Source of the DNA: a virus
Strand: one strand, 5' to 3'
Length of the DNA: 64,000 nucleotides
IMG/VR virus record: IMGVR_UViG_3300034375_008262
Span: 1-64,000 of that record
The notes under the pieces were generated by a model. The model had not been told where the DNA came from and made no database searches. It worked only from the letters and a program-made list of their open reading frames with translations. Shown one piece after another: positions 9,590 to 64,000 of the stretch; within the stretch, counting starts at the first letter, position 1, and every line of letters starts with the position of its first letter. The position numbers and the translations under genes are program-made.

Positions 9590-9621
9590 ACTACGTATAT
9601 TTAAAAAACATCGGAGTCATA

Positions 9622-32200: not shown

Positions 32201-35200
32201 ATTGCAGGATCTTTTACAAAATTAATATACCCAAAATACCTATCATAACCTTTTGTAGTATCAAGATCATTGCCAACTTGATATTCGCTTTTCAACATCT
32301 CAACACCATTTACTGTGACACTAAATGTATCTGTCTTTACATTCATTGGCCACAACAATTGGAATTTTTGTTTTGCGCCTGTTCCTAAAAAGTTTTCTTT
32401 TTGGTCAATAGTCTCAAAATATTTTTTACCACTAACTCTGTCAAATTTTACAGTCATGTGTGTGCTTCTTACCAAAGGATTACCAATAATTACACTTGCT
32501 TTTACTGGACTACCGTCTGGATCTTGATTGCCACTTACTGTTACAGTAGGAGCAGATAACACTCTGTTGCCTTTTTTAAGTATTTCAATTGATTTAACTT
32601 TGCCTTTAGCAATATATGCTCTCGCAGTTGCTCCACTATTTCCACTAATAGTAACATCTGGTGTATTGTTAAACCCACTGCCTCCGTCTAAAACTTCAAT
32701 ACTAACTATTTCGTATGTATTGTTATCTACCCAATTTTTGTATGGATACGTAAAATATTTTTGCCACAAATCTGTAACTTCATTGTTTGAAAATTTAGCA
32801 ACACTAGGAGTAATATTTCCTCCAATGTAGCTAGGTGGTAAATCAAAGTCAGATATCAAACTATTGGTAGGTTCAATTTTTTCGTATGAACTTATGTATT
32901 CTCTAACACTAGTTTTATAAGGCTTAACTTCGTTGATATAATCTTGATAATTTTCAAGATTGTCATTTTGATATGCAACTTTTTGTTCCAATTCTCCAAC
33001 ATTATGTTTTGCTCTTAAGAAACTTGATTTAAATACCCAATCAACATTTTCCTGTTCAGATAGTGCATATCTTACACTTGCAAAAAATAGTTTATTGTAT
33101 TCTACAGCCAATTCGCCAATAAAAATATCAGTTTTAATAGCATTTAATATATTTCTTAATTCATTAACTGGTTCTCTATCATAAAATGCTATATCATATA
33201 CACCAGCATCATAACCAGTAGTTTCTGTTGAATAATTATAAATTAAGCTAGACAATTGAATTGTGCCATTTTGTCTGCCTACAGTTTTGTAATTAATTGT
33301 ATAATCTTCAGTGTCTTGGTTGTCTATTTTTTCTAACAGAAGCCAGCCGCCTGTTCCAATATTTTTTATTTTAACAACATCACCTATTGTATTATCTAAT
33401 CCGAATAATTCATAACTAGATTCTATTGTTTGGTTAATTATTGTGTTTATTGAATAACCAGTAGCGTAATAATCAGCATAATTCCAATACTTGGTTGTAT
33501 CAAAACTTTGGTTGTCTGTTCTATTCCATTCTCTAGAAGTAGGATTGTAAACATATATGCTCCAACGTCCGCCAATTGTTTCATCTGCGTTTACTAATAC
33601 ACTGAATTCTCTTACTTTTAAAATTGTGTTAGACGAATAATCAAAACCTTGTTCTTTAATTTCAACACTTGTAATTTGTCCATTACTGTTTATTGTTGCT
33701 TTAAATTCAGCATTTTTACCTGTGACATCATCAAATTCAATTTCAGGAGCAACTTTATATCCGTTGCCTGCATTATTAATAATTACGTCGGTGATTTTAC
33801 CGTCAACAATCACAGGTGTTAAAACAGCTTGTGTCTTTTTTGCAGTTCCTACAAATTGTAAATCATTTACAGTATCAACTGCAACATCGTGTTTTCCTAA
33901 AGACAATAAAGGTGCTGGATCCACTAATAATAATTTGCTTATATTATAATTATCTACTATAATATTTTTCAAAAATACTGAGTTGACTCTATCAACAAAT
34001 TGTTTTACAGCTTCTATTCTATTTACAAACATACTCTGTCTTGGAATATTTAACAATCCGTATTTTTTAGCAACTTGTAAATTTTCATCTGGAACTGAGT
34101 TGCCTATGTTATCATATCCAATTAAACTATCAATCCATTTTTGTTCTATGTCTTTGCTTGGCATAGAAACATCTAAACCTTCTGTTAATAAATTATACTC
34201 GTAATGTATAGGCACATTCAAATCTACATCTTTTTCTTTTCTAAAATGTAGTATTGTATTTCGACCTTCAATTAAACTTGCAGTGTTATACATTGCAAAT
34301 TTGTTATTTTCTAGTATACTAATAAATCTATAACCTGTTGAGGCAGGATCTCTGATTAAGTTAGTTACCGATTCACAACTTAAAATACGCCCTGGAACAT
34401 TAGGAACAATTTGCGTATTTCTTACCCAGTAAAAATATTTTGTTATAAATCTTTTTCTAATAGCATCATAAACTTGCTTGCTACTAAACACTTCGCTACC
34501 GTATAGAGTAGTGCCAGTTACACCTCTTGCATAACCTTCAGTTGTGCCAGCTAAGTCGTCCCATTCACTTGGAAGTAAATCTGACGATACCCATTCACAA
34601 ACTTGTATTTGTGCGTTAGGCAATAATTTATGGAACACACCTGCTCTATAATTGCTGTTACCTTGATAAGGATCAAACCAACTTGCTTTGCTAATATCCC
34701 ACCATAGTTTTCCAACATATCTATCTGTCCAGTTTGAATATGCATCTACTGTAACATCTTGTTCGCCTGTGCTAAAAGAATATACTGCTGGATCATACCA
34801 AGTTTTAAATGTAATTTCTTGTTCTGCTGGACCTGCAATTTTTCCTTGTCTTGGATCTATAACATCTAAACGTTGTATAATATCTTTTTTGTCATCGCTA
34901 TACAAAAATACCTGTTGTAGTTCTTGTATTTTTGGTTTTGAAACTTGACTTGTTAAAATAGTCCAGCTATCTTTTCCTTTAGTAAAACTAAAATCAGCTA
35001 ACAATCCTTGGTTAACACTATTTACATATTTAGAATTTCCTGTGGCTGGATTGTCTGCTTCAAGGGCAGTAATAGTTGGCATATTCAAATACAAATGATT
35101 TTGATTAAATTTAAAATCGTCAAGCACATGATTGGATGTATCTCTTTTATATGCTATATCTTCTCCGTAAACGTAGGTGTTGTTGATTAGTTGGAATACT

Positions 35201-38200
35201 ACAATTCTGCCTGTATCTTGTATAGTTTTTGATATTCTTGTGTTACCATTGTCAAGTTTTAATTGATTGTTATCAAAACCTGTAACTTCAACTAAATCAC
35301 TGTTTTTACCACAAATTGCAAGTTTATTACCGCTAAAATCAACTGCACTTCCGAATGCTTCATTTTTATCTTTATAAGGACTTCTAACATTTTGCGACAG
35401 AGTATACAAATCATCTGACTGCTGCTTATACAGGTATACTGTGCCAGCATCATTTGATATATCATCGTTGTATGGTGCTGCTACAGCAATACGATCACCG
35501 TCGTCATTGATAGCAAAGTCTACACCCCAGCTTTCTCTTTTTGTAGTATCTGCTTTTATTTCTTGTATATATTTCCATCTATCGACTGGTTTGTTATAAA
35601 CACTAAGAGTTCTAACACTACTTACATCAGACTCAACAACAATTTTATCTCCATTGTCATTTACGTCAAATTTAATGCCAAAATTTGATTCGCCTGTATC
35701 AGAGTCACCGTCTAATTCTTGGTATCTATTAGGAATATATCCGGTGTGTTCTATATCTTGTGCTGCAATCCAACTATTTGTATCTGTAGGTAATTTATCA
35801 TTAACAGGAGTTGTTAGAGGAATTCTTTCAACAAGTGCTTGATACAATGCACCTTGGTAGAAAACTATATCGTTTTCTCTATATTTTTCATTTACATCAA
35901 ACACACCTTTGTAGCTTCTATTTCTCGTCCACTTCCATTCGTCGTCAAATTCAAAGAAATAAACACGACCTACGTCAATACCAGGAGCACTAACATACAA
36001 TTGATGTATACCATTTATATTTTTTCTTAATTCTACTTGATAACCAAATTGTTCTTCTGCATTTGGATCAGGACTACACATAACTATGTCTAAGGTATAC
36101 TCTCTTGTAGAATCATCAAACTTGTAAATATGAACAATACCTTGATTACTCAATCCTGATGAATTTCCTACACCAGCAGGAATATAATATGCTGGTTCCC
36201 AATCATTACTGTCGCTATCAGAAATAGTGCTACTATCGCTATAACTGTCATGCCAGTTGCTTACAGCTTGTTTGGCTCTCCATAGTGTGCCTCTGTCAAC
36301 TACTATATCACCTTGGTCGTATGCTTCAGTTGGATCATAAGTGCCTTTAAATTGTGTTAACGCATTATCAGCTCGTGGTGCACCAACTGCAATAAATTTA
36401 CTATCTGGTGAAATTGCAACACTTGCACCGTATCCAGAATTTATGTCAGCTTCTTGTTCTGGTTCAAAAATTGCTCCTGCAGAATATGTAAAACTTTCTG
36501 CATTTCTAATCAGTAAAGATACTTTGCCTATTCTTGTAGATGACGTGTCGGTGCTGTCACCTCTAACAAGTGTTGTGTTTCCAAAGTTAATGTCATATGA
36601 TTCCGCTACACGGTTAAGCTGTGAATCTAAATTTGCATATTCTTGTTGTAAACTAATTACACTGTTATTTTCGTATACACTGAAAATACCTTGTCCGTTA
36701 TCGTCTACCCAAAGTCTGTCAGCTGCATCTTTTTGTATATCTTCAATATTTAAATTTAGTGTTTCAAAGTCAGCAAATCTTCTTGTTACAAATCTACTTA
36801 AACTTGCGCCGCCGGCTGCTGAAAAACTATCATCAGGATCTTCAAAAGAAATTTCAATTTCACTTGATCCTAAATCAAATGTAATGTCACTGCCTAATAC
36901 TTCTGTTACTTTGTAAAATCCTTTTAAATTTGGAATACTAGAAAATATTCCTATAATATCGTCAACAGCAATATCGTCAACTTGTCTATCGCAATTTATT
37001 TTTACACCAGAATTACTCGACGCAAGTGTTAAATTTGTAAATCCTAGTATTTCTAAATCACTTTGACTGTGCTTTAAAACTGTCCAAGATTGTTTGTCAG
37101 TAGTTACCCAAATGTGTTTGCCAATTTCTAAGTTGTCAATATCTATATTCAAAATAGAATCTTTAGATGTTACAATAAATTCTACATCCTCTGACCTAAC
37201 ATATCCTGAATTTTTTGTAAATGTATCCGTATTAGATATTACACTTGTTAATGTATGATCGTAATCTTCTGGCGATTTGAAAACTTGATTTTTAGCAATT
37301 TCATAAACTAAGTCAGTTCTGCCAATTGTAATATTGTTATTAAGTTCAAATAACTGCGGTTCAATTCTGTATTTGCTTTCGTCAAGTTTGTATTCAATTT
37401 CTTGAATATTATCAATTGCTCCGTATTGTCCAGCTCTAATTGCCCATTCTTCATATAGCTCAACACTGTCTTTATTAGAAGAACCTAAAGCATCAAACAA
37501 CTTGGTCATAGCATTATTTGTGCCTTTTTCTTGTATAAATCCTTGATAAAATTTATATTGGCTCACATTATCGGTAATAATATTTTCTAAATATTGACGT
37601 TTTTGATAGCCAATTAAATGCTGTGCTAAACGTTGTTGTTCTGTGTCAAAATTATCTGTATCTAAATCATAAAAATCTGCAAACTGATTAACTTTATAAT
37701 CCCAGTTTGGATAAATTTGCGATACAGGTTTTTCAGATAGTCTACGCCATTTTGTATTGTCAAATGTTTGTTTAGAACTATGATTTCCAAATGCACTATA
37801 ATAAAATTCTTTGTATTTTACTACATCGCCTATACGATAATCTGTGTTTTCTCGCCAATCAACAATTTTTGCTTCATCATAAAAAAATCCTGGTATACTC
37901 AAACTACCAGTCCAATTATCTGTTCTATACCCTACAAGTTTGATACGTTCTTGTCTAAAGCCAGCTGCTTTATCAAAAATAACATCATTGAATACTGTTT
38001 GATTATCAATCAATACCACATGTTCTTTTTGCACTAATGGTAATTTAATTAAGAATATACCTTCCGGTGTGCCAACAGGATTAATTGTAAATTTTGTATC
38101 TTTGTCTCTAAAAATATTTGTTAAACTACTGTCTATTGCATTGCCGTTTCCGTCTAATATAGATACATCGTAAAAATTATCATATACATTATCAATAGTA

Positions 38201-41200
38201 AAATTGTTTTTTGAAAATGTAACTCTGTTAGCAGCAGGACTAATGGCTAATACTGTATCATTGTCCCAGTTTTGTGTGGTAAAGAATAAAAACTCTTTTA
38301 TTAGTAGCAGCATGTCTTCTACTTGCCCACTTTCAGGATTAATGTTTTCAAAGTTCCAACCGTCGTCTTTTAAGTATGCTTCATACCCTAACAGGAAGTC
38401 TACAACGTCTTGTTCTGTTTTGTAAATCTGTCCGTAAGGAACACTTGTAGCAGTTTTGTTGAATCTTCTTCTAATAACGCCGGTTTTACCTCCTTGAACA
38501 GGAAGCTCTGCTAACTTAGTAAAATTTTTATTTTCAAATTCATTAGAGCTTACATGAGAAACTTTTGCTCTATAAAATTCATTGTTGTATTTTACAACTG
38601 TGCCAATTGTGTATGTATTAGACTCGCTCCAGTTTAAGAATTTTTCACTAATTCCTCCAACATTAATAGCACTATCACTTTGTGTTTCTATATAAGGATA
38701 AATTGTAAATGAAGGATTTTGATTGTCATAACCTTCTATAATATATCCACTATCGCTCACTGTAATCAAAATGCCACTAAGTGTTGCAACTTGTTGAACT
38801 GAAGAAGTATTTAAAAATATTTGATAATTTTCTTCTGGAACAAATACGCTGGTTTTATTCAACGGACTTCTGCTGTCAAGTAACAATTTCAATTTATTTT
38901 TTTCAGCAAAGCCGGCTAATTTTATGCTTAATTGATTGTCTAGCCTTTTTAAATCTGACTGATAAGAATCATAACTAGATGACACTGCCCATTTCACATA
39001 ATTTGCTATGTAATTTATTAAACCAGCAGTAAAATGTTGTTTTGATTCATTGCCAGTGAGTGTGGGAAAAATTATATCTTTTGTTGTAATAGCTTGTCCA
39101 GTTTCATTGTAAACAAAATTGCCTGCCATATCTTTGATAATTCTACTTCTATCAAAACCTAATCCAAAAACTTCACATGGCTTACTTACAATCCAAGCCT
39201 TTAGTATAGCAAATCTATAATCACTGCTATTTCTAAATGCACTTTCGGTTGGTCCTTGATCTCCGTAAACAAAAGGCTCGCTTGTAGAAGGTAGATAAAA
39301 TCCTTGTGCTATTCCGCTATCCAAAGGTGAACGTAAATTTCCATTTTCGTCAGTAGGAATAATAGACAATAAATTTGGACGTTTATACTTGTCTAATGTC
39401 TTTACAGATTTGCCAGGTTCTTTTACAAAACCGTCACGTAAATCTTGCCATAGCACTGTATTACTTAGAGTGTATGGCGCAGGACCATAAACATCTTGCC
39501 ACCATGTAGGCTCAATTGAAAAACCTAGCATTTCCCAAGGATGTGTATGCGGACGGTCTGTATCATAGAACTGTTTAAAGATTGCACGCCACCCACCAGG
39601 TAATCTATTGCCATCTGCATCTGACATGCTTCTATAATTAAATGTAAAACTATTTTCGCCGCTCCAATTTGTATTTTCAGTATAATTTGGATTTCCAGCT
39701 GTGCTTAACCATGAACTAAAATCTTCAAGAATAAGGCTATCAATTGTTTCTCTACTAACACCTGTCTTTCTATTAAATCCACCTATAAAATCATGAATAT
39801 CTAAATATTCAGTGTTATAAGATGTTTTAATATTGTTGTAAATTCTTTTTTCAAGATCTAATAATAGTTCATCTCTATAATCATCAAATCTTACAGTATA
39901 ACTTCCATCATGTCCAACAATAACATCAACATTTCCATTAGCACCTGTAATTGTTTGGAACTCTGGTTTGTATAACGGATACAAACCTAATTTAGTTGGT
40001 GTAGGTGGAACATAGCACCCGTTTGTGTTTTCATATTCATATACAACTATGTCTTGTCCTATTGTTGGATTATAGTATTTTATAAATCCATTTTCAAAAT
40101 CGTAATCTACACCTTGATATTTTTGTTCGCCGTTAACATAAACTAAAACTGCTTTGTTGCTGAGAGTTTTCAAATCAAAGTTTGTAAAACTTGTAGGCAA
40201 ATATGCTGTTTCGTCATATTCTATTTCATGAATCGTTTCTGTAGTTGCATTCATCGGAATCATATCAGATGCAAAAAACGGCATACTTGATGTTTTGTCT
40301 TTGTTCAAAGTATTCATTATCAAGTCAACATGTTTTTTGGTATCTCCATGAAATCCAGTTTGGTTTGCTGTAAAAAGAAAGCTACTTTTAAATCTGCTGT
40401 ATTCTTTCATAGCAAATTGAATAGATTTAATTATGTTTGCATCCTTATCTACCAAATGATATGCTGCTAAATTTACAGGTCCGCTGTGTTTCATAAACTG
40501 CGTTCCGTATTGAGTAATGTTTGGTAAATCTCTTAGGTTTGTATTTCCAGGTATACTACCTTGTGCTACTGGATGATAATTTTCAACAATACTGTTAACA
40601 TGTTTGTTTACTTCACCGAGTGTAAATGTTGTAAGATTTTCATTTTGTGGATTGCTTTCCAAATTCTTTGGTATTTCATAATATCCATTAACGTTTTTGT
40701 TTGCAGAACTATAACATTTTAAAACTACAATACTTTCACTATCTAAATTATTAAAAAATCTTACTTGTTTGTATTTTACAGTGTTATCTAATGTGTAATC
40801 AACACCTTCAATTTTCTTTTTGTTGTTGACAAAAACTCTAACCACTAGATCATCGAGTAAATGACTATTATCAAATACATCTACAGGAAAATTATTTAAT
40901 TGTCCGTTATATTGTCTAATAACAGGTTGTCTTGATTTAAAATATGTTTTTTCCCAGACGCTTTTCCATTTATAACTGCCGTCTTGGTTAAAGATTTTGA
41001 AGAAACCACTTGAAGTATTTTTTTCTACAATATTTTGAGAACTGTCTTGATAGGTAAATTTATCGGTGTGATAATTAAAATCAAAAACAATATCACCAAA
41101 ATTGTTAATACTTTGGTATTTCAACGGAAATCCAAGTTCTACATCGTTAGAGCCGCTTCCTTTTGCATAAGAAAAAAGTTTTGTCCCTATAAAACTTGTT

Positions 41201-43002
41201 CCTACATACTGTGTAGTATCGCCATAACTATATGCATTTGAATCAAATAAATCAAAATGAGGTTGTTGATTTACAGATGTTTTTTCTTGAGCTTTATTCC
41301 ATTTGTTATTTGCATAATGGAACATCTTTCCAGCATTAACATTACCTTGAGAAACTAATACAGTATCGCCTTCGTTTGGAATAGTATCTGCTTCTTCAAT
41401 TAAAGTTATTTGTCTATTTTTTATTGTGCCTGTTCCAAAGTTAATAAATTTTACTTTATAAATTTTTCCTGCAACAAGTATGTCTTTGTCAGCTGTGAAC
41501 AATAATCTCATGCCATCTGTGACTTCAACACCATCAATAATGTATCCACCTTTTCCTTCAATAGTGCTAAAAACATCAGTTGTAAACGTATCTATTAGAT
41601 CAACATTATCTTTTGCAACAGCACCATGATTATATAATTTTAAACCAGATGTATACTCAATAATTGGACGCTTGGCTCTAGCTTCCTCGTCAATTTCTAC
41701 AGGTAACCCTGCTTGGTTATAACTTTCTACAATAACATCCCTATGGAACCATCTGTTATATCTTGACCACGGGTTTTTATCTGGACTACCTCTGTTGATT
41801 GTGATATAATCTTTTTGTGCAACAAAAGCAGCAGCATCTTCATAAGGATATTCGTCAAAGCCAAATTCCTCGCCATCAAATGGAACATTTTTTACTGTTG
41901 TAAAAGGAACTGGAATTTCTAATTCTGTTTCTGGTATCAATCTAATAGAAGACCCAACTCCTTCAACAAAATAATTTCCTGTTGCATATTTTTTTGGAGT
42001 TACCTCGCCTACAAAAAAGATACGCTGACCATTTGATAAATTTCCACCAATTGGAGATTGATATGATTTTTTACCTATAATTTCATCTTCTACATTAATT
42101 TGAGAATTTTCATTTATGTTATAAAAGTTAAGCAATCCATTCATATTTGCATTGTTTTTACTTGCATAATATAAAAGTGGTGGAACTGTATCGTCTGGAG
42201 TAAATTCAATACGGCCGTTTTCAATCCATACATCGTCTGTTTCAATGTATGCACCGTCTTGATTTCTTTTGTATCTTTTGATATTTGTATTGTAAATTGT
42301 GCTGATATTTTCTGCATCAATTTCTAAAAGAGGATCATTATCTTGATATGCAATATTTGTTACAAAAGAAATAGGTTCACCTGGAGTGTTAATATCAAAT
42401 TTATAAGTTTGACCTTTATATAATTTTAATGTTGGATTTTTTGTTATTCCATCTGGAGAAAAAACATAGCTTTGTGTTTGATCGTCGGTTCCCAACTCAA
42501 CATTGTAAACACTGGTTATACCTCGTTGAGATCCACTAACAGCAACCGGAATTGGACCAAGTGGCAGCCAATAATATTCTCTAAAATTTGTAAACTTATC
42601 AAAATCAATGTGCGGATTCCAACTATAACTTGTTTGTGAATTTAGCACACTGTGATTGTTCACACTACCTTTATATGTTTTTATAACACCTAATAGATCT
42701 GTATATGAAGAATAAAAATTAACATTACCTAAATCATCTTTACTTACAATACTAGATTCAAACTGATAGTTTTCTCTATCTGTAGATACATCAGGTAAAA
42801 AAGTATCTGTAACCTTTGCTGTAGGAGAATTTCTTCTTCCTACATATGCATCTAATTTTTCGATTACACCTTCAGAAATCATTGAATCAATGGTTGACTG
42901 AACAAACTTATTGTTTGTATCTGTTCTAAAATACCTTGGTAACAAGTTTTTAGCTGATCTGTCTGAATCGCCAATTGGCAATGGATAATCAATACTTTCC
43001 AT
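29251..43002 (-). CDS. Giant baseplate protein, 4583 residues (gp7 position)
   Basis: One uninterrupted frame of 13.75 kb. The start ATG overlaps the gp6 stop (TAATG). The order gp25-gp6-giant matches gp25-gp6-gp7 in T4, but gp7 has about 1030 residues. Visible parts: N-terminal region with YSWNPHIDFDKFTNFREYYW; repeated beta modules of the type 'VNGxxxxxGxDY ... DxIxVxxF' near residues 710-970 and again about 3490-4560 (FSVTVNGVEMLKSEYQVG, VVMVNQKVLREDVFY, LVYADDVRVDRQYW); four chitin-binding-module-like repeats (near 1455, 1715, 2220, 2365; e.g. YRIGDVVKYKEFYYSA); FG-GAP-like propeller blades near 2190-2560 (SVAISPDSKFIAVGAP, DFAINDDGDRIAVAAP); and G-x-G-Y repeat pairs near 3060-3130 and 3425-3490. 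Probably a wedge protein that also binds surface glycan. Confidence 0.85.
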   Translation of the reverse strand: MESIDYPLPIGDSDRSAKNLLPRYFRTDTNNKFVQSTIDSMISEGVIEKLDAYVGRRNSPTAKVTDTFLPDVSTDRENYQFESSIVSKDDLGNVNFYSSYTDLLGVIKTYKGSVNNHSVLNSQTSYSWNPHIDFDKFTNFREYYWLPLGPIPVAVSGSQRGITSVYNVELGTDDQTQSYVFSPDGITKNPTLKLYKGQTYKFDINTPGEPISFVTNIAYQDNDPLLEIDAENISTIYNTNIKRYKRNQDGAYIETDDVWIENGRIEFTPDDTVPPLLYYASKNNANMNGLLNFYNINENSQINVEDEIIGKKSYQSPIGGNLSNGQRIFFVGEVTPKKYATGNYFVEGVGSSIRLIPETELEIPVPFTTVKNVPFDGEEFGFDEYPYEDAAAFVAQKDYITINRGSPDKNPWSRYNRWFHRDVIVESYNQAGLPVEIDEEARAKRPIIEYTSGLKLYNHGAVAKDNVDLIDTFTTDVFSTIEGKGGYIIDGVEVTDGMRLLFTADKDILVAGKIYKVKFINFGTGTIKNRQITLIEEADTIPNEGDTVLVSQGNVNAGKMFHYANNKWNKAQEKTSVNQQPHFDLFDSNAYSYGDTTQYVGTSFIGTKLFSYAKGSGSNDVELGFPLKYQSINNFGDIVFDFNYHTDKFTYQDSSQNIVEKNTSSGFFKIFNQDGSYKWKSVWEKTYFKSRQPVIRQYNGQLNNFPVDVFDNSHLLDDLVVRVFVNNKKKIEGVDYTLDNTVKYKQVRFFNNLDSESIVVLKCYSSANKNVNGYYEIPKNLESNPQNENLTTFTLGEVNKHVNSIVENYHPVAQGSIPGNTNLRDLPNITQYGTQFMKHSGPVNLAAYHLVDKDANIIKSIQFAMKEYSRFKSSFLFTANQTGFHGDTKKHVDLIMNTLNKDKTSSMPFFASDMIPMNATTETIHEIEYDETAYLPTSFTNFDLKTLSNKAVLVYVNGEQKYQGVDYDFENGFIKYYNPTIGQDIVVYEYENTNGCYVPPTPTKLGLYPLYKPEFQTITGANGNVDVIVGHDGSYTVRFDDYRDELLLDLEKRIYNNIKTSYNTEYLDIHDFIGGFNRKTGVSRETIDSLILEDFSSWLSTAGNPNYTENTNWSGENSFTFNYRSMSDADGNRLPGGWRAIFKQFYDTDRPHTHPWEMLGFSIEPTWWQDVYGPAPYTLSNTVLWQDLRDGFVKEPGKSVKTLDKYKRPNLLSIIPTDENGNLRSPLDSGIAQGFYLPSTSEPFVYGDQGPTESAFRNSSDYRFAILKAWIVSKPCEVFGLGFDRSRIIKDMAGNFVYNETGQAITTKDIIFPTLTGNESKQHFTAGLINYIANYVKWAVSSSYDSYQSDLKRLDNQLSIKLAGFAEKNKLKLLLDSRSPLNKTSVFVPEENYQIFLNTSSVQQVATLSGILITVSDSGYIIEGYDNQNPSFTIYPYIETQSDSAINVGGISEKFLNWSESNTYTIGTVVKYNNEFYRAKVSHVSSNEFENKNFTKLAELPVQGGKTGVIRRRFNKTATSVPYGQIYKTEQDVVDFLLGYEAYLKDDGWNFENINPESGQVEDMLLLIKEFLFFTTQNWDNDTVLAISPAANRVTFSKNNFTIDNVYDNFYDVSILDGNGNAIDSSLTNIFRDKDTKFTINPVGTPEGIFLIKLPLVQKEHVVLIDNQTVFNDVIFDKAAGFRQERIKLVGYRTDNWTGSLSIPGFFYDEAKIVDWRENTDYRIGDVVKYKEFYYSAFGNHSSKQTFDNTKWRRLSEKPVSQIYPNWDYKVNQFADFYDLDTDNFDTEQQRLAQHLIGYQKRQYLENIITDNVSQYKFYQGFIQEKGTNNAMTKLFDALGSSNKDSVELYEEWAIRAGQYGAIDNIQEIEYKLDESKYRIEPQLFELNNNITIGRTDLVYEIAKNQVFKSPEDYDHTLTSVISNTDTFTKNSGYVRSEDVEFIVTSKDSILNIDIDNLEIGKHIWVTTDKQSWTVLKHSQSDLEILGFTNLTLASSNSGVKINCDRQVDDIAVDDIIGIFSSIPNLKGFYKVTEVLGSDITFDLGSSEIEISFEDPDDSFSAAGGASLSRFVTRRFADFETLNLNIEDIQKDAADRLWVDDNGQGIFSVYENNSVISLQQEYANLDSQLNRVAESYDINFGNTTLVRGDSTDTSSTRIGKVSLLIRNAESFTYSAGAIFEPEQEADINSGYGASVAISPDSKFIAVGAPRADNALTQFKGTYDPTEAYDQGDIVVDRGTLWRAKQAVSNWHDSYSDSSTISDSDSNDWEPAYYIPAGVGNSSGLSNQGIVHIYKFDDSTREYTLDIVMCSPDPNAEEQFGYQVELRKNINGIHQLYVSAPGIDVGRVYFFEFDDEWKWTRNRSYKGVFDVNEKYRENDIVFYQGALYQALVERIPLTTPVNDKLPTDTNSWIAAQDIEHTGYIPNRYQELDGDSDTGESNFGIKFDVNDNGDKIVVESDVSSVRTLSVYNKPVDRWKYIQEIKADTTKRESWGVDFAINDDGDRIAVAAPYNDDISNDAGTVYLYKQQSDDLYTLSQNVRSPYKDKNEAFGSAVDFSGNKLAICGKNSDLVEVTGFDNNQLKLDNGNTRISKTIQDTGRIVVFQLINNTYVYGEDIAYKRDTSNHVLDDFKFNQNHLYLNMPTITALEADNPATGNSKYVNSVNQGLLADFSFTKGKDSWTILTSQVSKPKIQELQQVFLYSDDKKDIIQRLDVIDPRQGKIAGPAEQEITFKTWYDPAVYSFSTGEQDVTVDAYSNWTDRYVGKLWWDISKASWFDPYQGNSNYRAGVFHKLLPNAQIQVCEWVSSDLLPSEWDDLAGTTEGYARGVTGTTLYGSEVFSSKQVYDAIRKRFITKYFYWVRNTQIVPNVPGRILSCESVTNLIRDPASTGYRFISILENNKFAMYNTASLIEGRNTILHFRKEKDVDLNVPIHYEYNLLTEGLDVSMPSKDIEQKWIDSLIGYDNIGNSVPDENLQVAKKYGLLNIPRQSMFVNRIEAVKQFVDRVNSVFLKNIIVDNYNISKLLLVDPAPLLSLGKHDVAVDTVNDLQFVGTAKKTQAVLTPVIVDGKITDVIINNAGNGYKVAPEIEFDDVTGKNAEFKATINSNGQITSVEIKEQGFDYSSNTILKVREFSVLVNADETIGGRWSIYVYNPTSREWNRTDNQSFDTTKYWNYADYYATGYSINTIINQTIESSYELFGLDNTIGDVVKIKNIGTGGWLLLEKIDNQDTEDYTINYKTVGRQNGTIQLSSLIYNYSTETTGYDAGVYDIAFYDREPVNELRNILNAIKTDIFIGELAVEYNKLFFASVRYALSEQENVDWVFKSSFLRAKHNVGELEQKVAYQNDNLENYQDYINEVKPYKTSVREYISSYEKIEPTNSLISDFDLPPSYIGGNITPSVAKFSNNEVTDLWQKYFTYPYKNWVDNNTYEIVSIEVLDGGSGFNNTPDVTISGNSGATARAYIAKGKVKSIEILKKGNRVLSAPTVTVSGNQDPDGSPVKASVIIGNPLVRSTHMTVKFDRVSGKKYFETIDQKENFLGTGAKQKFQLLWPMNVKTDTFSVTVNGVEMLKSEYQVGNDLDTTKGYDRYFGYINFVKDPAIDDVIVVNYKKATSLLHAADRVLYEYNPTTGMPGKELSQVMQGVEYEGALYDSFGFGNEQGFGAGGFSDLPWDTFDNTFSDEVIKLDGSTATITLSKPLENGVNYNIYLNGVRLDDPAYDGSTATANKNAVMATIVGDGEQIEIDIQGIFTTTDGDEVIIRKEESDGSLSPVSTNFDTSLSGGALDKTTATGIPSGEIVVDGDEFFSATNSKGPEELVPGTVTDTLDLQVYTRPNNGLANIAVANYIYDGSTREFEFPEKPFGETNVVVMVNQKVLREDVFYSDYDLNAVFIDSDENIETGDSITVMTFGSNGNNLIDSKTIQLNSYDIANQPVGENWRFVTAADFSSDASAIVVMNGRVATEGSDYFLNISDSTTEAANKITIEFPGGRVRLGENNIIQYAVYDTNIVSYSLVYQDITWNQTLGNYWNFTNTPTPFNVKPLGHNLIVFGDDEILDPGYSIRYTTTTDRVYDLDSWAFSDLTQINSRDILVYADDVRVDRQYWTWDQTSARITILSNTIAPAGTKLDIYVINNADYYFIDTQIEFTEVDGSTTINMEPLVTVGQPLKLVSTASSTVFNPIVKSVSNNVVVVEGMARQIRDEFVADEDFWVTNDSTQMKIANIEFIESDSISIDPDKYNGAFTTYRVMHFSNHDVNKFRRYSYDVLTDTVVNEFTSEYTRRNLLTSGIVELDSQAAGAQYVWVVKNKKLLRPLIDYEVMEELDAVRLNEIPAANDKIQVLHWTNAVSGKRFGFRIFRDMLGRTHYKRLNQENSYVLAKDLQVYDNSILLDDATGIQKPNTLKNLPGILWIDGERIEYFSVQGNTLSQLRRGTLGTGVKSLHKAGDRAFGQGPGETIDYQDTYDVYRDFADGSSQIVDLGFTFDNINEIEVFVGGKKLSKVDVNVYNNTIAQDSTEGDQVKAQEFTVVDVSGEKRINFTTTPAVNTEIRVVKRTGRRWIQPNETLRTSSSPIAKFIRGATIELPK

Positions 43003-55801: not shown

Positions 55802-56815
55802 TTGTTTAAAAAAGCCGCTGTCTTTACGGATATCCACTTTGGATTGAAGGGTAATTCGCGAGTTCATAACCAAGATTGTGAAGAATATGTAGATTGGTTT
55901 ATCAAAACTGCAAAAGAACATGGGTGTGAAACAGCCTTGTTTACTGGTGACTGGAATCACAACAGAAACAGCTTAAATTTAACAACTATGGATTCTGGTA
56001 TACGCAGTTTAGAAAAGCTAGGTGCAGCATTTGATAAGTTTTATATGTTTGCTGGCAATCACGATTTGTATTACAAGGATAAACGTGACGTAAAATCTAC
56101 TGAATTTGCAAGACATATACCTGGTGTGACAGTTATTGAAGATATACATATCGAAGATGACGTTGCATTAGTGCCTTGGTTAGTAGGTGACGAATGGAAA
56201 CGTATGAGTAGCATTGAAGCAAAGTATCTGTTTGGACACTTTGAACTTCCTAGTTTTTACATGAATGCTATGGTGCAAATGCCAGATCACGGCGAACTGA
56301 AAAGCGAACACTTTGTAAATCAAGAGTATGTGTTCAGTGGACACTTCCACAAGCGTCAGAAGCAAGGCAAGATCCACTACATTGGTAATGCTTTCCCACA
56401 CAACTATGCAGATGCTTGGGATGATGACCGCGGTATGATGATATTAGACCGTGAGAATGGTGCAGAACCAGAGTATATCAACTGGCTAGACTGCCCTAAG
56501 TATAGAACTGTAAGGCTATCTCAGTTGATCGATGAAAAAGATACAATGCTAAAAAGCAAAATGTATCTAAGAGTTACCTTAGACTTGCCAGTAAGTTATG
56601 AAGAAGCTAGTTTCATTAAAGAAACATTTATTAGAGATTATGATTGCCGTGAAATAACACTTATTCCACACAAACAACTTGAAGAAATAAACACAGAACT
56701 TGACATTGCACAGTTTGAAAGTGTTGATCAAATTGTTAGCAACGAAATTATGGCAATTGACAGTGACAACTTTGATAAGGCATTGTTGTTAAACATTTAC
56801 AACGGTTTAGAATGA
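55802..56815 (+). CDS. gp47: Recombination endonuclease subunit gp47 (SbcD/Mre11-like)
   Basis: 337 residues. Metallophosphoesterase motifs in order: FTDIHFG (Asp10, His12), FTGDWNHN (Asp50), AGNHDLY (Asn86, His87, Asp88), GHFELP (His146), SGHFHKRQ (His181, His183). All metal ligands are present. gp47 forms a complex with gp46 that resects DNA ends for recombination-dependent replication. The start is TTG (55802-55804), set by AAGGAA eight bases upstream; no ATG fits. It overlaps gp46 by four bases (ATGA). Confidence 0.94.
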   Translation: MFKKAAVFTDIHFGLKGNSRVHNQDCEEYVDWFIKTAKEHGCETALFTGDWNHNRNSLNLTTMDSGIRSLEKLGAAFDKFYMFAGNHDLYYKDKRDVKSTEFARHIPGVTVIEDIHIEDDVALVPWLVGDEWKRMSSIEAKYLFGHFELPSFYMNAMVQMPDHGELKSEHFVNQEYVFSGHFHKRQKQGKIHYIGNAFPHNYADAWDDDRGMMILDRENGAEPEYINWLDCPKYRTVRLSQLIDEKDTMLKSKMYLRVTLDLPVSYEEASFIKETFIRDYDCREITLIPHKQLEEINTELDIAQFESVDQIVSNEIMAIDSDNFDKALLLNIYNGLE

Positions 56816-58590
56816 TTAAATTAAAAGATCTTACAGTAAAAAACTTTATGAGTGTGGGTAATGTTACCCAAGCAGTTGATTTCCAAGAGGATCAACTCAC
56901 TCTAGTGCTTGGTGAAAATTTAGATCAAGGAGGTGACGACACTGGATCACGAAACGGAACAGGCAAAACTACAATAATCAATGGATTATCTTACGCCTTG
57001 TTCGGCCAAGCACTAACAAATATCAAGCGTAACAACTTGATAAACAAAACCAACAGCAAGGGCATGTTGGTTACACTAAACTTTGAAAAAGGTGGTAACA
57101 AATACCGCATTGAACGTGGTAGATCACCTAACATACTAAAGTTTTACGTAAACGACAGTGAACAACTTGATGAATTAGAAGATAACAGTCAAGGCGACAG
57201 TAGAAAAACACAAGAAACTATCAATGACTTGTTGGATATGAGTCATGATATGTTCAAACACATTGTTGCACTTAATACATACACAGAACCTTTCCTAAGT
57301 ATGCGAGCAAATGACCAAAGAGCTATTATTGAACAGCTACTTGGTATTACAATACTTACAGAAAAGGCAAATTTATTAAAAGACAGTATCAGATTAACAA
57401 AAGATACTATTACAGAAGAAACATTAAAGATAGAAGCTATACAAAAAGCCAACGAAGGCATTGAAAACACTATTAACAATCTAAAACAAACGCAACGTGC
57501 ATGGAAAGCCAAGCATAATACCGATATTGAACGTTTAGAGTCTGCTATTATAGAGCTAGAACAACTAGATATTGATGCAGAATTAGATAGTCATGAAAAA
57601 TTGCAAAATTGGACTGAGTTAAACGCTGCAATTGCTGCACTTAACAAAGAAAAAGCCACATTAGAAAGTGCTCTAATGAGAGCAAACAAAAGTGTAGATA
57701 ACGCAACCAAGGATATTGCAGAACTTGACGATGCTACTTGTTATACATGTGGACAAGCACTACATGAAGACAAAAAAGCAGAGATTCTTGCAACTAAAAG
57801 CAAAGATTTGCAAGATTCTATGGCATATCAGACAGAAGTTGCTGGAAAATTAGATGATGTTGTTAAAGGTCTTAACAAAATTGGTGATATCAACGGTCGT
57901 CCTACAACATTTTATGAAACTGTAAAAGAAGCATATGAACATAGAAACAATGTAGATAATTTGAAGAAATCTTTGCTAAGTAAACAGCAAGAAGAAGATC
58001 CTTACCAGGCACAAATTAACGATTTAACCAATACAGCATTACAAGAGATCAATTGGGCACCTATTAACGAACTAAACAATGTAAAAGAGCATCAAGACTT
58101 CTTGTTGAAGTTACTTACAAACAAAGATTCGTTTATTAGAAAGAAGATTATTGATCAAAACTTAGCATATCTAAACAATAGGCTAACTTACTACTTAGAT
58201 AAAATAGGCTTACCGCATCAAGTTGTGTTCCAAAATGATTTAAACGTAGAAATTACACAGCTAGGACAGGATTTAGACTTTGATAACTTGTCACGTGGCG
58301 AACGTAACAGGCTAATACTCGGTCTTTCCTTTGCATTCCGCGATGTTTGGGAAAGTTTATATCAAGGCATTAACTTGTTGTTCATTGACGAGCTTATTGA
58401 TAGCGGAATGGACACAGCAGGCGTAGAAAACAGCATAGGCATACTGAAAAAGATGACTAGAGAGCGTGATAAGAACGTTTTCTTGATTAGTCACAAGGAC
58501 GAACTAGTTGGTAGAGTCAACAATGTTCTAAGAGTGGTAAAGGAAAACGGGTTCACTAGTTATGCAACAGACATTGACATTGTAGAATGA
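56812..58590 (+). CDS. gp46: Recombination endonuclease subunit gp46 (SbcC/Rad50-like ATPase)
   Basis: 592 residues. Walker A GSRNGTGKTT at 45-54; a coiled-coil arm interrupted by a zinc hook, CYTCGQ, near 310; ABC signature LSRGERNRL near 493; Walker B NLLFIDELID near 525; and a final SHKDE (H-loop). The insert after the early glycine-rich loop (DQGGDDTG) resembles marine gp46. It powers and regulates gp47. The start overlaps the gp47 stop, and its stop overlaps the next gene (ATGA), so three genes are coupled. Length matches T4 gp46 (560). Confidence 0.95.
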   Translation: MIKLKDLTVKNFMSVGNVTQAVDFQEDQLTLVLGENLDQGGDDTGSRNGTGKTTIINGLSYALFGQALTNIKRNNLINKTNSKGMLVTLNFEKGGNKYRIERGRSPNILKFYVNDSEQLDELEDNSQGDSRKTQETINDLLDMSHDMFKHIVALNTYTEPFLSMRANDQRAIIEQLLGITILTEKANLLKDSIRLTKDTITEETLKIEAIQKANEGIENTINNLKQTQRAWKAKHNTDIERLESAIIELEQLDIDAELDSHEKLQNWTELNAAIAALNKEKATLESALMRANKSVDNATKDIAELDDATCYTCGQALHEDKKAEILATKSKDLQDSMAYQTEVAGKLDDVVKGLNKIGDINGRPTTFYETVKEAYEHRNNVDNLKKSLLSKQQEEDPYQAQINDLTNTALQEINWAPINELNNVKEHQDFLLKLLTNKDSFIRKKIIDQNLAYLNNRLTYYLDKIGLPHQVVFQNDLNVEITQLGQDLDFDNLSRGERNRLILGLSFAFRDVWESLYQGINLLFIDELIDSGMDTAGVENSIGILKKMTRERDKNVFLISHKDELVGRVNNVLRVVKENGFTSYATDIDIVE

Positions 58591-60144: not shown

Positions 60145-60822
60145 ATGAAAGTATTTCAAGTTATTGCAGAACAAAATGAATTAGATGAAATTGGATTAAA
60201 TCCGTTTGGAAAACTTGCTCGTCAACAACGTGCAGCAAATAAAGCTGGCAAACAAAGTATAAAAGACGAAGTAAATCAATTGCGTATTGAGTTTAACGCA
60301 TTTCTTAAAACAAGCAAGCAGCCTGCAACTGCTGGCACACTGTTAAATTACTTGAAGCAAAAAGGTTACGGAGCAGAAGCAGCAGCTATTATTAAAGCAC
60401 TACCAAGCAAAGGCAGCAAGATGAGAGCAAAAGCTGCTGCACAGGATAAAAAAGCAGCAGCCCAAGCAGCAGCACAAAAGACAGCAGCTGGTCAAGCAGC
60501 AGCCGCAGCTGGTTTAGGCAATCAAGGAAGTGCAGCAAGCATTAACAAGATGCCAGCTGATCAACAGAAGATTGCAAGACTAGCAGCAAGTCAATACGAT
60601 GAAGCAGCAGCAGGCGATGTATTAAGCGGCGGACAAATCAAAAGTGTTATTGACCAAGTTGTAAGAAAAGGCTTTACTAGCAAAGCAGGATATTCAAAAG
60701 GTAAATTTGCTGGTGACGAACCACCTGCAACATTTAAGTCTGCTCAGGGTGCACCAGGTGATGCAACACAAAAAGCAATTGCACTTTTGAAAAAAGCAGG
60801 TTACACTGTAACTAAAGATTAA
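60145..60822 (+). CDS. Probable internal head protein with capsid-targeting N-terminus
   Basis: 225 residues. The N-terminus MKVFQVIAEQNELDEIG closely resembles the T4 capsid-targeting sequence (MKTYQEFIAE) of internal proteins IPI-IPIII, including the I-A-E where the prohead protease cuts; a second L-D-E is at 13-15. The body is Ala/Lys/Gln-rich and helical (KKAAAQAAAQKTAAGQ), then KPPATFKS-like and GYTVTKD at the end. Basic, small, late-expressed: it fits a protein packed in the head and injected with DNA. AAGGAA lies eight bases before the ATG. Its function after injection is unknown. The last four bases overlap the convergent gene's stop. Confidence 0.7.
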   Translation: MKVFQVIAEQNELDEIGLNPFGKLARQQRAANKAGKQSIKDEVNQLRIEFNAFLKTSKQPATAGTLLNYLKQKGYGAEAAAIIKALPSKGSKMRAKAAAQDKKAAAQAAAQKTAAGQAAAAAGLGNQGSAASINKMPADQQKIARLAASQYDEAAAGDVLSGGQIKSVIDQVVRKGFTSKAGYSKGKFAGDEPPATFKSAQGAPGDATQKAIALLKKAGYTVTKD

Positions 60823-61037
60823 AAAAACGGCTGTTGTGTTTTCTTAGCAACTTCTAAATTATCTTCGGCAAGTTTAGCTATAACTTCTCTGTCCTCTGGA
60901 GACAGCATAAAAGCATCATCATAACTCAAACCACCACGCATGTGCCAAACCATTTTGGCTAAATCGTAGCGGAGTTGTTTAATTTCTTCTTCTTGGACCT
61001 TGACCTCTTGTAATATTTTCTCCACGGGGAGAGCCAA
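60819..61037 (-). CDS. Tail assembly chaperone extension (gp51-position, -1 frame)
   Basis: As a separate gene it has 72 residues from TTG 61035-61037, with AAGGA only two bases away, too close for good initiation. The frame is open upstream of the TTG and joins the gp26-like gene through AAATTTT (61052-61058). I therefore read it mainly as the -1 frame extension of that gene, giving a fusion of about 359 residues. Sequence: ILQEVKVQEEEIKQLRYDL coil, then HMRGGLSYDDAFMLSPEDRE, which recalls the C-terminal part of G/GT-type tail chaperones. Stop overlaps the convergent gene by four bases. Confidence 0.72.
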   Translation of the reverse strand: MALPVEKILQEVKVQEEEIKQLRYDLAKMVWHMRGGLSYDDAFMLSPEDREVIAKLAEDNLEVAKKTQQPFF

Positions 61038-61042
61038 GATCC

Positions 61043-61897
61043 TTATGCGAAAAAATTTGAAGCGTCAAAGTTAATAGGCACTTCAAATGTTTCAGGAGCG
61101 CCAGTTGCTCTATCCTCTTCTGTTGTGACAATTTTTCTTGGTTTTACAGCAAATTTTTTGCGTTGATTATCAACATGGTCAAGCAGTGACTTGTAAAATT
61201 CAACAGGTGCGTTCTGTAAAAACTCCATGATGTGATTTTTATCAGTTACAGTTTGATCACCTACTGTGATGCTTACAACACTTGAATACACACTTGTTAG
61301 ATTCATTTCTGTGAGTCTTGAGAATGTTTCATTAAACTGAGATAGTTTTTCTACTTCACTCAATTTTTCGTCATCAACAATACGAAGAATACGCTGTTCT
61401 TCAAATGTTTTGAGTGCAACATCTGTAAACTGTCTATAGTTCATTGGTTGTGTTTCTACTTTAAACTCGTTGTGTTCAAAGATTGGATCATAAGTTTGAC
61501 TGTTAAGTTCGTCTAGTAATTCAACTAAGTTTGTTTCAAAGCTACGCTCTTCTGCTGTGCCTGGAATAGTTATATCCATAGTTAACATTTCACCATAAGT
61601 TGCAATACGAATTGCTGTAAGCAGTGCATCAAGATCAATACTTGGCACCATCCATGCGTTCTTGATAGCAGGCACACAGTTTTGAATCACATTGACTGTG
61701 CTTTGTCCGTTGAGCAATGCATCAGGCGTTTTGATCATGATTTCGTCTTTTGCCGTCATAGGATAAACTGCATATTGATTGTTTTCTGTTTTTTCTAGCG
61801 ATCCAGGTGCATAGAACAACCCTTTACTAGGTAAATCGATAAACAATTTGGGCTGACGAAAATGTTTCATCAGCGGATTTGCTGTTATTTCGCTCAT
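61043..61897 (-). CDS. gp26: gp26-like baseplate hub / tail assembly chaperone protein
   Basis: 284 residues. Matches the T4 base-plate family (T4_baseplate, gp26): FIDLPSKGLFYAPGSLE, VYPMTAKDEIMIKTPDALL, NGQSTVNVIQNCVPAIKN, MVPSIDLDALLTAIRIATYG, MDITIPGTAEE. These are diagnostic together. The protein ends in ASNFFA, where the slippery AAATTTT can shift ribosomes into the 60819 frame. CCGGAG is six bases before the ATG. It is divergent from the tape-measure-like gene, as chaperones commonly are placed beside it. Role: folding of the tape measure before tail-tube polymerisation, inferred. Confidence 0.85.
   Translation of the reverse strand: MSEITANPLMKHFRQPKLFIDLPSKGLFYAPGSLEKTENNQYAVYPMTAKDEIMIKTPDALLNGQSTVNVIQNCVPAIKNAWMVPSIDLDALLTAIRIATYGEMLTMDITIPGTAEERSFETNLVELLDELNSQTYDPIFEHNEFKVETQPMNYRQFTDVALKTFEEQRILRIVDDEKLSEVEKLSQFNETFSRLTEMNLTSVYSSVVSITVGDQTVTDKNHIMEFLQNAPVEFYKSLLDHVDNQRKKFAVKPRKIVTTEEDRATGAPETFEVPINFDASNFFA
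61052..61058 (-). promoter_or_regulatory. Predicted -1 ribosomal frameshift site AAATTTT
   Basis: In frame 0 the codons are TCA AAT TTT TTC GCA TAA. The heptamer A AAT TTT fits X XXY YYZ exactly; a -1 slip gives AAA TTT, then TTT CGC ATA AGG ATC TTG and the open 60819 frame. The zero-frame stop follows nine bases after the slip site. Confidence 0.75.
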
Positions 61898-61972: not shown

Positions 61973-64000
61973 GTGACTGATACAGATATTCGTAATGTAG
62001 GTGGACCAGATGGTGTAGCCAGTGAAGCAACTCTTATGAGACTTGTTGAATTAACAAGATCAATGCAAAGAGGCACCAATGCTGCGGCTCAAGCTGAAGC
62101 TAGACTACGCAAAGCACACAATGATTCTGTAGCAAAAGGCACAAAAGAACTTGGACTACTTGGTAAAGCAGCTGACCTAGCTGGAAAAGGTTTAAACAAG
62201 TATGCCAATGTTTTGCAACACGGTGTTAGTGGTGTAAGCGACTTTAGCAAATACATTTTAGGCAGCAACAGCGCACTACAAAGACTAGTTGAATATGCTG
62301 ACCAAAGCACACATCAATTTAGAGAACTAAGCCAAGTTGGTGCAGGATTCAGCAACAGTATTTTTGAAATGAACAAAGTTGCTGCAACCAGTGGCATGGC
62401 TATGACACAGTTTTACGAAACTATATCTGGCAACAGTGAAGTGTTAAGGATGCTAGGCGGCACAGTCACAGACGGTGCAAAACGTTTCTCAGAAATATCA
62501 AAAGGTATCCGTCAAAGTGATCTTGGTCAAAGACTTTTACAATTAGGATTTACTGCTCAAGATATCAACGAAGGCTTTCTGTCTTATTCAAACAACATGC
62601 AACGCCAAGGATTATTGCAACGCATGAGCAATGCAGAGTTAATTGAAGGCAGTGCAAACTATCTAAAAGAAATTGACTTGCTTGCAAAAGCAACAGGCAA
62701 AAACAGACAAGAATTATTGAATCAAACCAGCGAGTTGCAAAACAGTGCAGCATTCCAGGCATTGCAAGCAAGAGCAAGTGCTGACGGTGCAGGACAACTC
62801 GAACGCAACATGGCAAGTCTTGCAAGTTTCTTACCAGGCTTTACTGGCGACATCATGGACATGGCAAGTGGATTGCGTGGTAGCCAATTAGAAATAGGTT
62901 TGAGTCAAAGTGCTGCTGGTCAACAAATGGTTAACTTGATTAGAAACATGGAAGGTATGAGCAATACTGAATTCCTAAGAAACATGCAGCAACTTGGTCC
63001 TCTTATTGGTAATACTGTTGCAGCAATGGATCCAGCACAGATTAGAGCATTGAGAGCACAAGGTAGTCCTTTGGCTGCACTGTTTGATGCGATGCCTGCC
63101 TTTAGAGCAATGGCAAACATTGATCCTGATGCAGCTGAAAAAGAACAAGAACAACGTAATAAACTAACAGAATTGTTTGCAGGATTTTCAGATGCAATAT
63201 CAAGATTGTCATCATTTATCTTAGAGGAATTTTTGAACAGTGAAACGTTTGAATCTTTGAAAAGAATTGGCAACAGCCTGTCTGAGACATTCAAACAATT
63301 GTTTGGCGAACAAGGTGAAAGCGGTGCTTTTGCTAATGCAAGCGAAGGCATTAAAAATTTTACAACAACAATTGATACATGGTTTGTTGAAAATATTACT
63401 CAACCGTTACAAGCATTTATAGATGATTTTAATAACTTTAGTGCAGAAGGCGGAACACCTTTAGAATTTTTGAAAATGAAAGTCACAGAAGCAGGTAATG
63501 CTATTGCTGACTATTTGTTAGGTCCTATTGAAAGTGAACCTGGAGGTCCAAACAGAGGACAACGAGCTGGCGGCATACTTAAAAAAATCACAGACGGTAT
63601 AGCAAATGCATTCAGCGGAGACGGTGCAAGTAATTTTTTAACTAGTATCAGTGATAGTATTAAAGGTGTATACGAAAAACTAACAGCAGACGGAACATTT
63701 ATAAGTGATGTAACAAAAAGTGTCACTGACATTTTTACAAACCTAACAAGCGATCAAGGTTTTATAACAAACATCAGTAATGCAGTAACTAAAATATTCA
63801 CAGACTTAACAAGCGATCAAGGGTTTATTACAAAAATTAATGATGCAATTTCAAGTATTTTTTCTGATCAAGGTGTAATTTCTAGTGTAAGCACTGCCTT
63901 TAGTGATTTTATGAAGAACAATACTGTAATACAAGCAATGTCAGATGCTATATCAAATGCAATGGATACTGTAGAAACCAGTCTGCGTGACTGGCTTGGT
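61973..64000 (+). CDS. Tape-measure-like protein, 5' 676 codons
   Basis: Open from GTG 61973 (AGGA seven bases upstream) to the right edge, so the C-terminus is missing. The visible part is almost all helical and Ala/Ser/Gln-rich: VASEATLMRLVELTRSMQR, GLLGKAADLAGKGLNKYANV at the start, and SDQGFIT repeats with a 21-residue (63-base) period at about 63680-63860, such as TDLTSDQGFITKINDAISSI. A regular helical repeat and placement beside the gp26-like chaperone fit a tape-measure (gp29-like) protein that sets tail length. A different large virion protein is possible, since no hydrophobic pore segment is visible yet. Confidence 0.75.
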   Translation, partial: MTDTDIRNVGGPDGVASEATLMRLVELTRSMQRGTNAAAQAEARLRKAHNDSVAKGTKELGLLGKAADLAGKGLNKYANVLQHGVSGVSDFSKYILGSNSALQRLVEYADQSTHQFRELSQVGAGFSNSIFEMNKVAATSGMAMTQFYETISGNSEVLRMLGGTVTDGAKRFSEISKGIRQSDLGQRLLQLGFTAQDINEGFLSYSNNMQRQGLLQRMSNAELIEGSANYLKEIDLLAKATGKNRQELLNQTSELQNSAAFQALQARASADGAGQLERNMASLASFLPGFTGDIMDMASGLRGSQLEIGLSQSAAGQQMVNLIRNMEGMSNTEFLRNMQQLGPLIGNTVAAMDPAQIRALRAQGSPLAALFDAMPAFRAMANIDPDAAEKEQEQRNKLTELFAGFSDAISRLSSFILEEFLNSETFESLKRIGNSLSETFKQLFGEQGESGAFANASEGIKNFTTTIDTWFVENITQPLQAFIDDFNNFSAEGGTPLEFLKMKVTEAGNAIADYLLGPIESEPGGPNRGQRAGGILKKITDGIANAFSGDGASNFLTSISDSIKGVYEKLTADGTFISDVTKSVTDIFTNLTSDQGFITNISNAVTKIFTDLTSDQGFITKINDAISSIFSDQGVISSVSTAFSDFMKNNTVIQAMSDAISNAMDTVETSLRDWLG
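63737..63866 (+). repeat. 63-base (21-codon) repeats in tape-measure-like gene
   Basis: TAACAAGCGATCAAGG starts at 63744 and again at 63807, 63 bases apart; the encoded unit is SDQGFIT with flanking helix. A third, divergent unit follows. This fits the periodic helices of tape measures. Confidence 0.65.

Follow-up and report, generated by a model that had tools for sequence, protein, structure and literature searches.

A predicted -1 frameshift at the end of a gp26-like gene points to a tail assembly chaperone made in two forms in marine phages

Introduction

In a stretch of viral DNA of 64,000 nucleotides (nt) (IMG/VR record IMGVR_UViG_3300034375_008262, positions 1 to 64,000; the whole of this stretch is called the window), a gene resembling gene 26 of phage T4 stops just after a run of six T, and the -1 frame stays open beyond its stop codon. 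The question raised by this locus is whether the -1 frame is a small gene of its own, or whether it is translated by ribosomes that slip back by one base near the end of the gp26-like gene. The lambda G/GT-type chaperones, as Levin et al. in 1993 and Xu, Hendrix and Duda in 2004 are said to have described, comprise a short protein and a rare -1 fusion, with a slippery heptamer near the 3' end of the gene. An earlier reading of the window from its letters alone (the sequence-only reading) had predicted a programmed -1 frameshift of this type, and the prediction is now supported by a conserved site, a conserved open frame and RNA structure. We consider it likely, with a probability of roughly 0.9, that the locus encodes a tail assembly chaperone (TAC) produced in two forms via -1 frameshifting on U_UUU_UUC.

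The gp26-like gene and its 3' end

The gp26-like open reading frame (ORF) lies on the minus strand (61897..61043) and encodes a protein of 284 amino acids (aa). In a profile search this protein matches PF12322 (T4_baseplate) with an E value of 4.5e-7 and a score of 30.2 bits, against a curated cut-off of 24.5, and it also matches the baseplate hub family phrog_150. Its AlphaFold2 model has a predicted local distance difference test (pLDDT) score of 86, and in BFVD this model is matched best (E 6e-23) by a baseplate hub assembly protein of the T4-like type. It is proposed here to be the short tail assembly chaperone (TAC-N). A search for close relatives of the locus at the DNA level gave no match among phage and plasmid records.

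The gene ends TCA AAT TTT TTC GCA TAA, exactly as the sequence-only reading had given it, and this end contains two overlapping heptamers in phase on the minus strand, A_AAT_TTT (61058..61052) and T_TTT_TTC (61055..61049). The spacing of nine bases to the stop codon that had been claimed for the former was mistaken, since A_AAT_TTT ends six bases before the stop and T_TTT_TTC three. A slip on either heptamer would lead to the identical junction peptide, ASNFF-RIRILAL, and to the same fusion of 359 aa, as read off the sequence; the peptide spanning the predicted junction in the window is ASNFFRIRILAL. Past the gp26-like stop, the -1 frame is open to 60819 and reads FFRIRILALPVEKIL... This extension (60819..61049, minus strand) has 76 codons after the two phenylalanine codons, followed by a stop, and is proposed to form the C-terminal domain of a long chaperone (TAC-NC) of 359 aa. 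The 72-codon frame starting with TTG, into which the -1 frame had been said to run, is real (ORF 60819..61037).

Conservation of the slippery heptamer and the -1 frame

Relatives were collected by a protein search of viral contigs (18), two alignment searches (the best 80 of 593 and the best 80 of 598) and one more search (3). The 181 distinct records that were scored consist of 172 viral contigs and nine named phages (P-SSM2, Syn9, S-PM2, HTVC008M, KVP40, Phosso, Atu_ph07, MIJ3 and 121Q); two further loci (L018 and L217) end with their contig before the gp26 stop and were not scored, and seven contigs reached by more than one search are counted once. Clustering at 85% identity over 210 bases, which collapsed identical stretches from different contigs, gave 106 clusters, 51 in the group of the window and 55 others.

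An in-phase T_TTT_TTY (Y being C or T) is found near the gp26 stop in all 181 records. The variant is TTTTTTC in 180 of them and TTTTTTT in HTVC008M, where eight T stand in a row at the end of gp26 and the slippery codons are immediately followed by the stop (TTT TTT TAA). The first base of the heptamer lies 10 nt before the stop in 171 records, 19 nt in eight, 16 nt in MIJ3 and 7 nt in HTVC008M. The junction was absent from the search patterns by which the relatives were found, so the conservation is not a product of selection for the heptamer, and it reaches down to 25% protein identity to the window gp26. Upstream of the site, the same frames of the 106 clusters have an in-phase T_TTT_TTY once in 26,382 other codon positions, and just one of the 71 other pairs of phenylalanine codons is TTT TTC. 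Ten further named phages were scored beyond the 181 records, and T_TTT_TTC is present in six of them (Desulfovibrio 7757, RaK2, Salicola SCTP-2, Vibrio 2.275.O, GAP32 and Serratia BF). Rhizobium RHph_I1_9 has T_TTT_TTG at this place. Taken over the 19 named phages that are not T-even, the count is 15 with T_TTT_TTY, one with T_TTT_TTG and three with neither.

The -1 frame is conserved together with the site. It is open for 60-78 codons in the 169 viral-contig records that are not cut off and for 59-79 codons in the nine named phages, and a W.MRG core of the -1 product is invariant across 40 aligned sequences. The comparison with marine relatives that had been suggested as a check, for a heptamer and an open -1 frame that are both conserved, thus came out positive for T_TTT_TTY.

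The heptamer singled out by the sequence-only reading was A_AAT_TTT (61052..61058, minus strand). It is in phase, as stated, and is rejected as the main slippery site, for it occurs in 78/181 records as against 181/181 for T_TTT_TTY, and only within the group of the window (42/51 clusters there, 0/55 of the others). The count of AAATTTT in the window is at the chance level (65 against about 70 expected), and therefore the strength of the case comes from phase, position and conservation and not from the heptamer as such.

RNA structure around the site

The proposed stimulatory stem of the window starts 6 nt past T_TTT_TTC, with GGATCTTGGCT as its 5' arm (61032..61042, minus strand) and GGTCAAGGTCC as its 3' arm (60995..61005, minus strand), and a smaller hairpin lies within the loop. 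This segment folds with a z score of -3.41 relative to dinucleotide shuffles, none of 200 being as stable, and five relatives folded alongside it gave z scores from -1.81 to -2.85. When stems of at least five pairs are counted, the best unbroken stem starts most often 5 nt past the heptamer (25 of the 49 window-group clusters and 15 of the 47 cyanophage-group clusters that have a stem). Such short stems arise easily by chance, and a comparison with synonymous codons was therefore taken as the test. Relative to RNAs encoding the same -1 protein with resampled synonymous codons, the mean z score is -2.39 in 50 window-group clusters and -2.61 in 48 cyanophage-group clusters, as compared with -0.41 (n=50) and -0.88 (n=47) in a downstream control region. 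The region past the heptamer is thus structured beyond the need of its coding, and the check for an RNA stimulator that the sequence-only reading had advised came out positive.

The stem of the cyanophage group is accompanied by strong column-wise covariation (22 changes on both sides in 47 sequences against 9.0 in shuffles, 0/500 as high), a count that relatedness can inflate. E. coli dnaX has a three-element -1 site. In 40 of 48 cyanophage-group clusters (for example, loci L135 and L042), a Shine-Dalgarno (SD)-like GAGG begins at a fixed distance of 14 nt upstream of the heptamer, and the glutamate codon at this site is GAG in 40/48, against 369/1,162 elsewhere in the same genes. The upstream SD-like element, heptamer and hairpin of cyanophages together suggest a dnaX-like three-element frameshift signal that would be absent from the group of the window, where the upstream element is found in 1/51 clusters. 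Both groups differ from dnaX in having U_UUU_UUC as the heptamer.

Relationship to T4 gp26 and gp51

PF12322 matches T4 gp26 and T4 gp51 alike, and the profile of the cyanophage-group -1 product matches residues 207-246 of T4 gp51 (249 residues) by hhalign (94%, E 1e-7). The alignment of T4-type gp51 comprised eight of 11 sequences; L226 was left out because of an early stop in its gp51 frame, and neither L220 nor L221 was included. Because the N-terminal family is shared and the cyanophage -1 product is homologous to the C-terminal part of gp51, T4 gp51 has the architecture of the predicted frameshift product encoded as one gene, and gp26 that of the short one. In a T-even-like locus (L226), the gp51 frame was seen to terminate early, in the region from 1501. 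Excerpts of earlier papers class T4 gp26 and gp51 as hub assembly chaperones (PMC3004832) and describe cyanophage gp51, in a comparison of T4-like genomes from 2010, as about 20% of the usual length and resembling its C-terminal region (PMC3037559). The -1 products of P-SSM2 and HTVC008M are annotated, from an internal start, as 'baseplate hub assembly catalyst'.

The T-even phages differ from the window in having two genes where the window has one with a -1 extension, and the slippery site is present in 0/10 of their intact gp26 ends. In seven of these ends the two phenylalanines are kept but are coded TTC TTT, and the -1 frame closes there within two codons. The loci L223, L224 and L225 lack the phenylalanine pair and L220 is truncated, so no length of the -1 frame is taken from these four. 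It seems fairly probable that frameshifting on U_UUU_UUC is the ancestral route to two forms across a T4-like superfamily (cyanophages, a pelagiphage, a Vibrio phage, jumbo myoviruses and the marine group of the window), and that the T-even phages are the exception, in which the gene would have been duplicated, one copy fused to the C-terminal domain as gene 51, and the slippery phenylalanine pair of gene 26 re-coded.

Comparison of the window-type N-terminal domain with T4 gp51 by profile gave no match, although PF12322 links each of them to the family separately. No convincing known family was found for the -1 product alone, one of 40 members matching phrog_634 ('baseplate hub assembly catalyst') with an E of 0.0058. 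The AlphaFold2 model of the C-terminal domain consists of three helices (pLDDT 87); its best Z score against 35 PDB chains was 3.4, and in BFVD nothing was matched at E <= 0.001, and names of the kind of tail assembly chaperone, tape measure chaperone or baseplate hub assembly catalyst appearing only at E >= 1. For the N-terminal part, VIA-align gave a best Z of 6.9, to unrelated helical proteins, with no chaperone recognised among its rows, and a sequence search for a solved relative returned none, only one chance match (E 0.21). The absence of fold matches proves nothing.

Opposing observations and alternative explanations

The following observations weigh against frameshifting as the route to the -1 product. 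Three distant phages, Vibrio D531 (L229, 1500-1740), Vibrio 207E48.1 (L230, 1450-1655) and Aeromonas phiA8-29 (L231, 1520-1745), keep the -1 ORF without the heptamer, and in the first two a start codon overlaps the gp26 stop (TAATG). Loss of the heptamer with retention of both frames is the case that the sequence-only reading had named as contrary to its prediction, and it is present in these 3/19 phages. As the three are distant and two have the overlap, we take them to reflect replacement of the site in a different lineage and not to refute the prediction for the clade of the window. Conservation was scored only in the best 80 of 593 and the best 80 of 598 relatives in the two large surveys. 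The downstream control region, too, is slightly more stable than the controls made for it. Not every member has the stem: at least eight of its nine pairs form, in either of two registers, in 33 of 50 window-group clusters, and in the group of the window and in that of cyanophages, the two large ones, one cluster each has no stem of five pairs. Covariation in the window group is weak (49 sequences; seven changes on both sides against 6.1 and four against 4.3 in column shuffles), probably because the 3' arm, whose distance varies among members, sits in differing places, and one register does not fit all. The -1 product of the window shows weak profile similarity to the cyanophage C-terminal domains, in the expected register, and a weak match to that of T4 gp51, not in the expected register; the window-type domain is tied to both only by position and weak profile similarity. 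Foldseek found nothing in PDB at E <= 0.001 for the fold of the N-terminal part, and no solved chaperone was matched. Lastly, codon 5 of the -1 frame is an ATG in many cyanophages, and their short gp51 could also be made separately from this ATG.

Such a start codon is accommodated if frameshifting makes the fusion and the C-terminal domain is made alone as well wherever a good ATG is near. This mixture of modes is compatible with frameshifting and is a possibility, albeit a doubtful one. The heptamer and a nearby or overlapping ATG occur together in many cyanophages and in KVP40, 121Q, Phosso and Atu_ph07, but the mixture fits the window poorly, where TTG (codon 6) and GTG (codon 10) are the only start codons of the -1 frame before codon 34.

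It is unlikely that the -1 ORF is solely a separate small gene, expressed by coupling or re-initiation just past the gp26 stop (from TTG here and from ATG in cyanophages) and rightly annotated as the 'gp51 baseplate hub assembly catalyst', with the poly-T run being merely two phenylalanine codons. A separate small ORF is indeed annotated in P-SSM2, HTVC008M, KVP40, 121Q and Phosso, and the codon-5 ATG of cyanophages and the TAATG of D531 and 207E48.1 agree with it. However, in 26 of the 106 clusters the first 12 codons of the -1 frame include neither ATG nor GTG nor TTG and in 15 no start codon precedes codon 24, while MIJ3 and Desulfovibrio 7757 have none anywhere in the frame. A start within 12 codons combined with an SD-like 4-mer at a suitable distance is found in merely 3/106 clusters, and the invariant T_TTT_TTY and the hairpin would be left unexplained. 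In the window, the rival start of the 72-aa protein is the TTG at 61035..61037 (minus strand). The codon at this position, codon 6, is TTG in just 13 of the 51 window-group clusters and TTA in 17, and separate initiation there, which the sequence-only reading had already judged poor, is disfavoured as the main route because the TTG is not conserved.

Slippage of the RNA polymerase on the T6 run, yielding a -1 mRNA, is less probable still. The run is exactly six T in 180/181 records, with eight in HTVC008M, but six T is short for polymerase slippage; the phase fits tandem slippage of tRNA-Phe, and the close hairpin, together with the SD-like element of cyanophages, fits ribosomal frameshifting. 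A chance open frame beside a coincidental slippery sequence, to which the chance frequency of AAATTTT in this AT-rich window might point, is practically dismissed by the conservation of the heptamer over 106 clusters, at protein identities to the window gp26 as low as 25%, and by the conserved core of the -1 protein.

Proposed mechanism and comparison with known systems

If the gp26-like gene is read by frameshifting on U_UUU_UUC, most ribosomes would stop at TAA to give the short protein of 284 aa. Some, held up by the hairpin about 6 nt downstream, would slip back by one base on the heptamer and read 76 more codons, so that a gp51-type C-terminal domain would be joined on in a fusion of 359 aa. 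If the pair acts as lambda G/GT does, the tape measure protein would be coated by the short form, and tail tube protein would be brought in by the long form, the rarer of the two. In terms of sequence architecture only, the locus has the make-up of a TAC, two products sharing the N-terminal domain with the longer one bearing a C-terminal extension; the occurrence and rate of the frameshift and the functions of the products we infer from sequence.

The likeness to lambda G/GT lies in the short protein with its predicted -1 fusion from a heptamer near the 3' end of the gene, and in the tail tube gene that adjoins the gp26-like gene in HTVC008M, KVP40 and Rhizobium RHph_I1_9. Unlike lambda G/GT, the window protein belongs to PF12322, the heptamer is U_UUU_UUY, and the gene and its large neighbour are divergently oriented.

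Vladimirov, Gautam and Davidson 2022 (Virology 566:9-15) reportedly identified the TAC genes of T4-like phages, according to the papers that cite it, and its title is said to put the emphasis on a mechanism that is not frameshifting, so that a direct test of how widely relatives use frameshifting would be worthwhile. Their study may report part of the present finding, and the sequence-only reading, which was not aware of an established frameshift in T4-type gp26 genes, may be right in part only, inasmuch as T4-like chaperone genes had already been identified there. In the literature that was searched, which did not take in Vladimirov et al. 2022, nothing was found that describes the gp26/gp51 junction as a frameshift site in either cyanophages or jumbo phages. 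Among the matches listed (60 of 62, and 60 of 1,166 phage records), no feature name under a match refers to a tail assembly chaperone or to frameshifting. An excerpt of the PRFect paper cites Vladimirov et al. for the use of a short gene and a fused long gene by 'some T4-like phages' (PMC10885494), and one of the Adele paper cites them for poly-T slippery sites in T4-like TAC-N genes (PMC12846349). Because of the latter citation the idea is not claimed here as unpublished; the finding is well supported, broader than the sequence-only reading had thought, and possibly reported in part. The same excerpt describes an invariant GTTTTT motif in the TAC gene of Vandenendeviridae, also present in Andersonviridae, with a -1 frame open in every Vandenendeviridae genome examined (PMC12846349). 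As far as this excerpt goes, these systems share with the window a poly-T -1 site ending TAC-N and an open -1 frame, and they differ in belonging to other phage families and chaperone genes (PMC12846349).

Neighbouring genes and other features of the window

The divergent neighbour of the gp26-like gene (61973..64000, plus strand) extends past the edge of the window and is a possible tape measure protein. Its similarity to the neighbour in Phosso is weak (E 1.4e-5 or 0.001, depending on the direction of the comparison), and the neighbour at the same place in RaK2 is annotated as similar to tail tape measure. In HTVC008M the tail tube gene flanks one side, and a putative tape measure gene follows after gp51 and another ORF.

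Elsewhere in the window, an ATPase of the AAA/SMC-like type is paired with a metallophosphoesterase (55802-58590); the two are probably homologues of gp46 and gp47, which would fit the T4-like superfamily. A single ORF of 4,583 aa occupies 29251-43002. The genes at 637-17642 are mostly on the minus strand, and several resemble radical-SAM/SPASM enzymes or glycosyltransferases by eye. The one at 12617-13900 has a SPASM domain (PF13186), that at 3688-4629 is a sugar epimerase, and that at 16257-17642 gave no Pfam match. This content is unusual cargo for a T4-like phage.

Implications

If frameshifting is the route at this locus and its relatives, the 'gp51 hub assembly catalyst' annotations of marine phages would denote frameshift halves and not independent genes. 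Across marine and jumbo phages, a very large group, a core tail gene would then have its annotation corrected, with gp26 and the short gp51 as a single frameshifted gene. The evolution of the separate genes 26 and 51 of T4 out of a frameshifted gene would also be given a concrete path. The roles of T4 gp26 and gp51, which have long been unclear, could be tested under a chaperone model in which the two products are made in a defined ratio.

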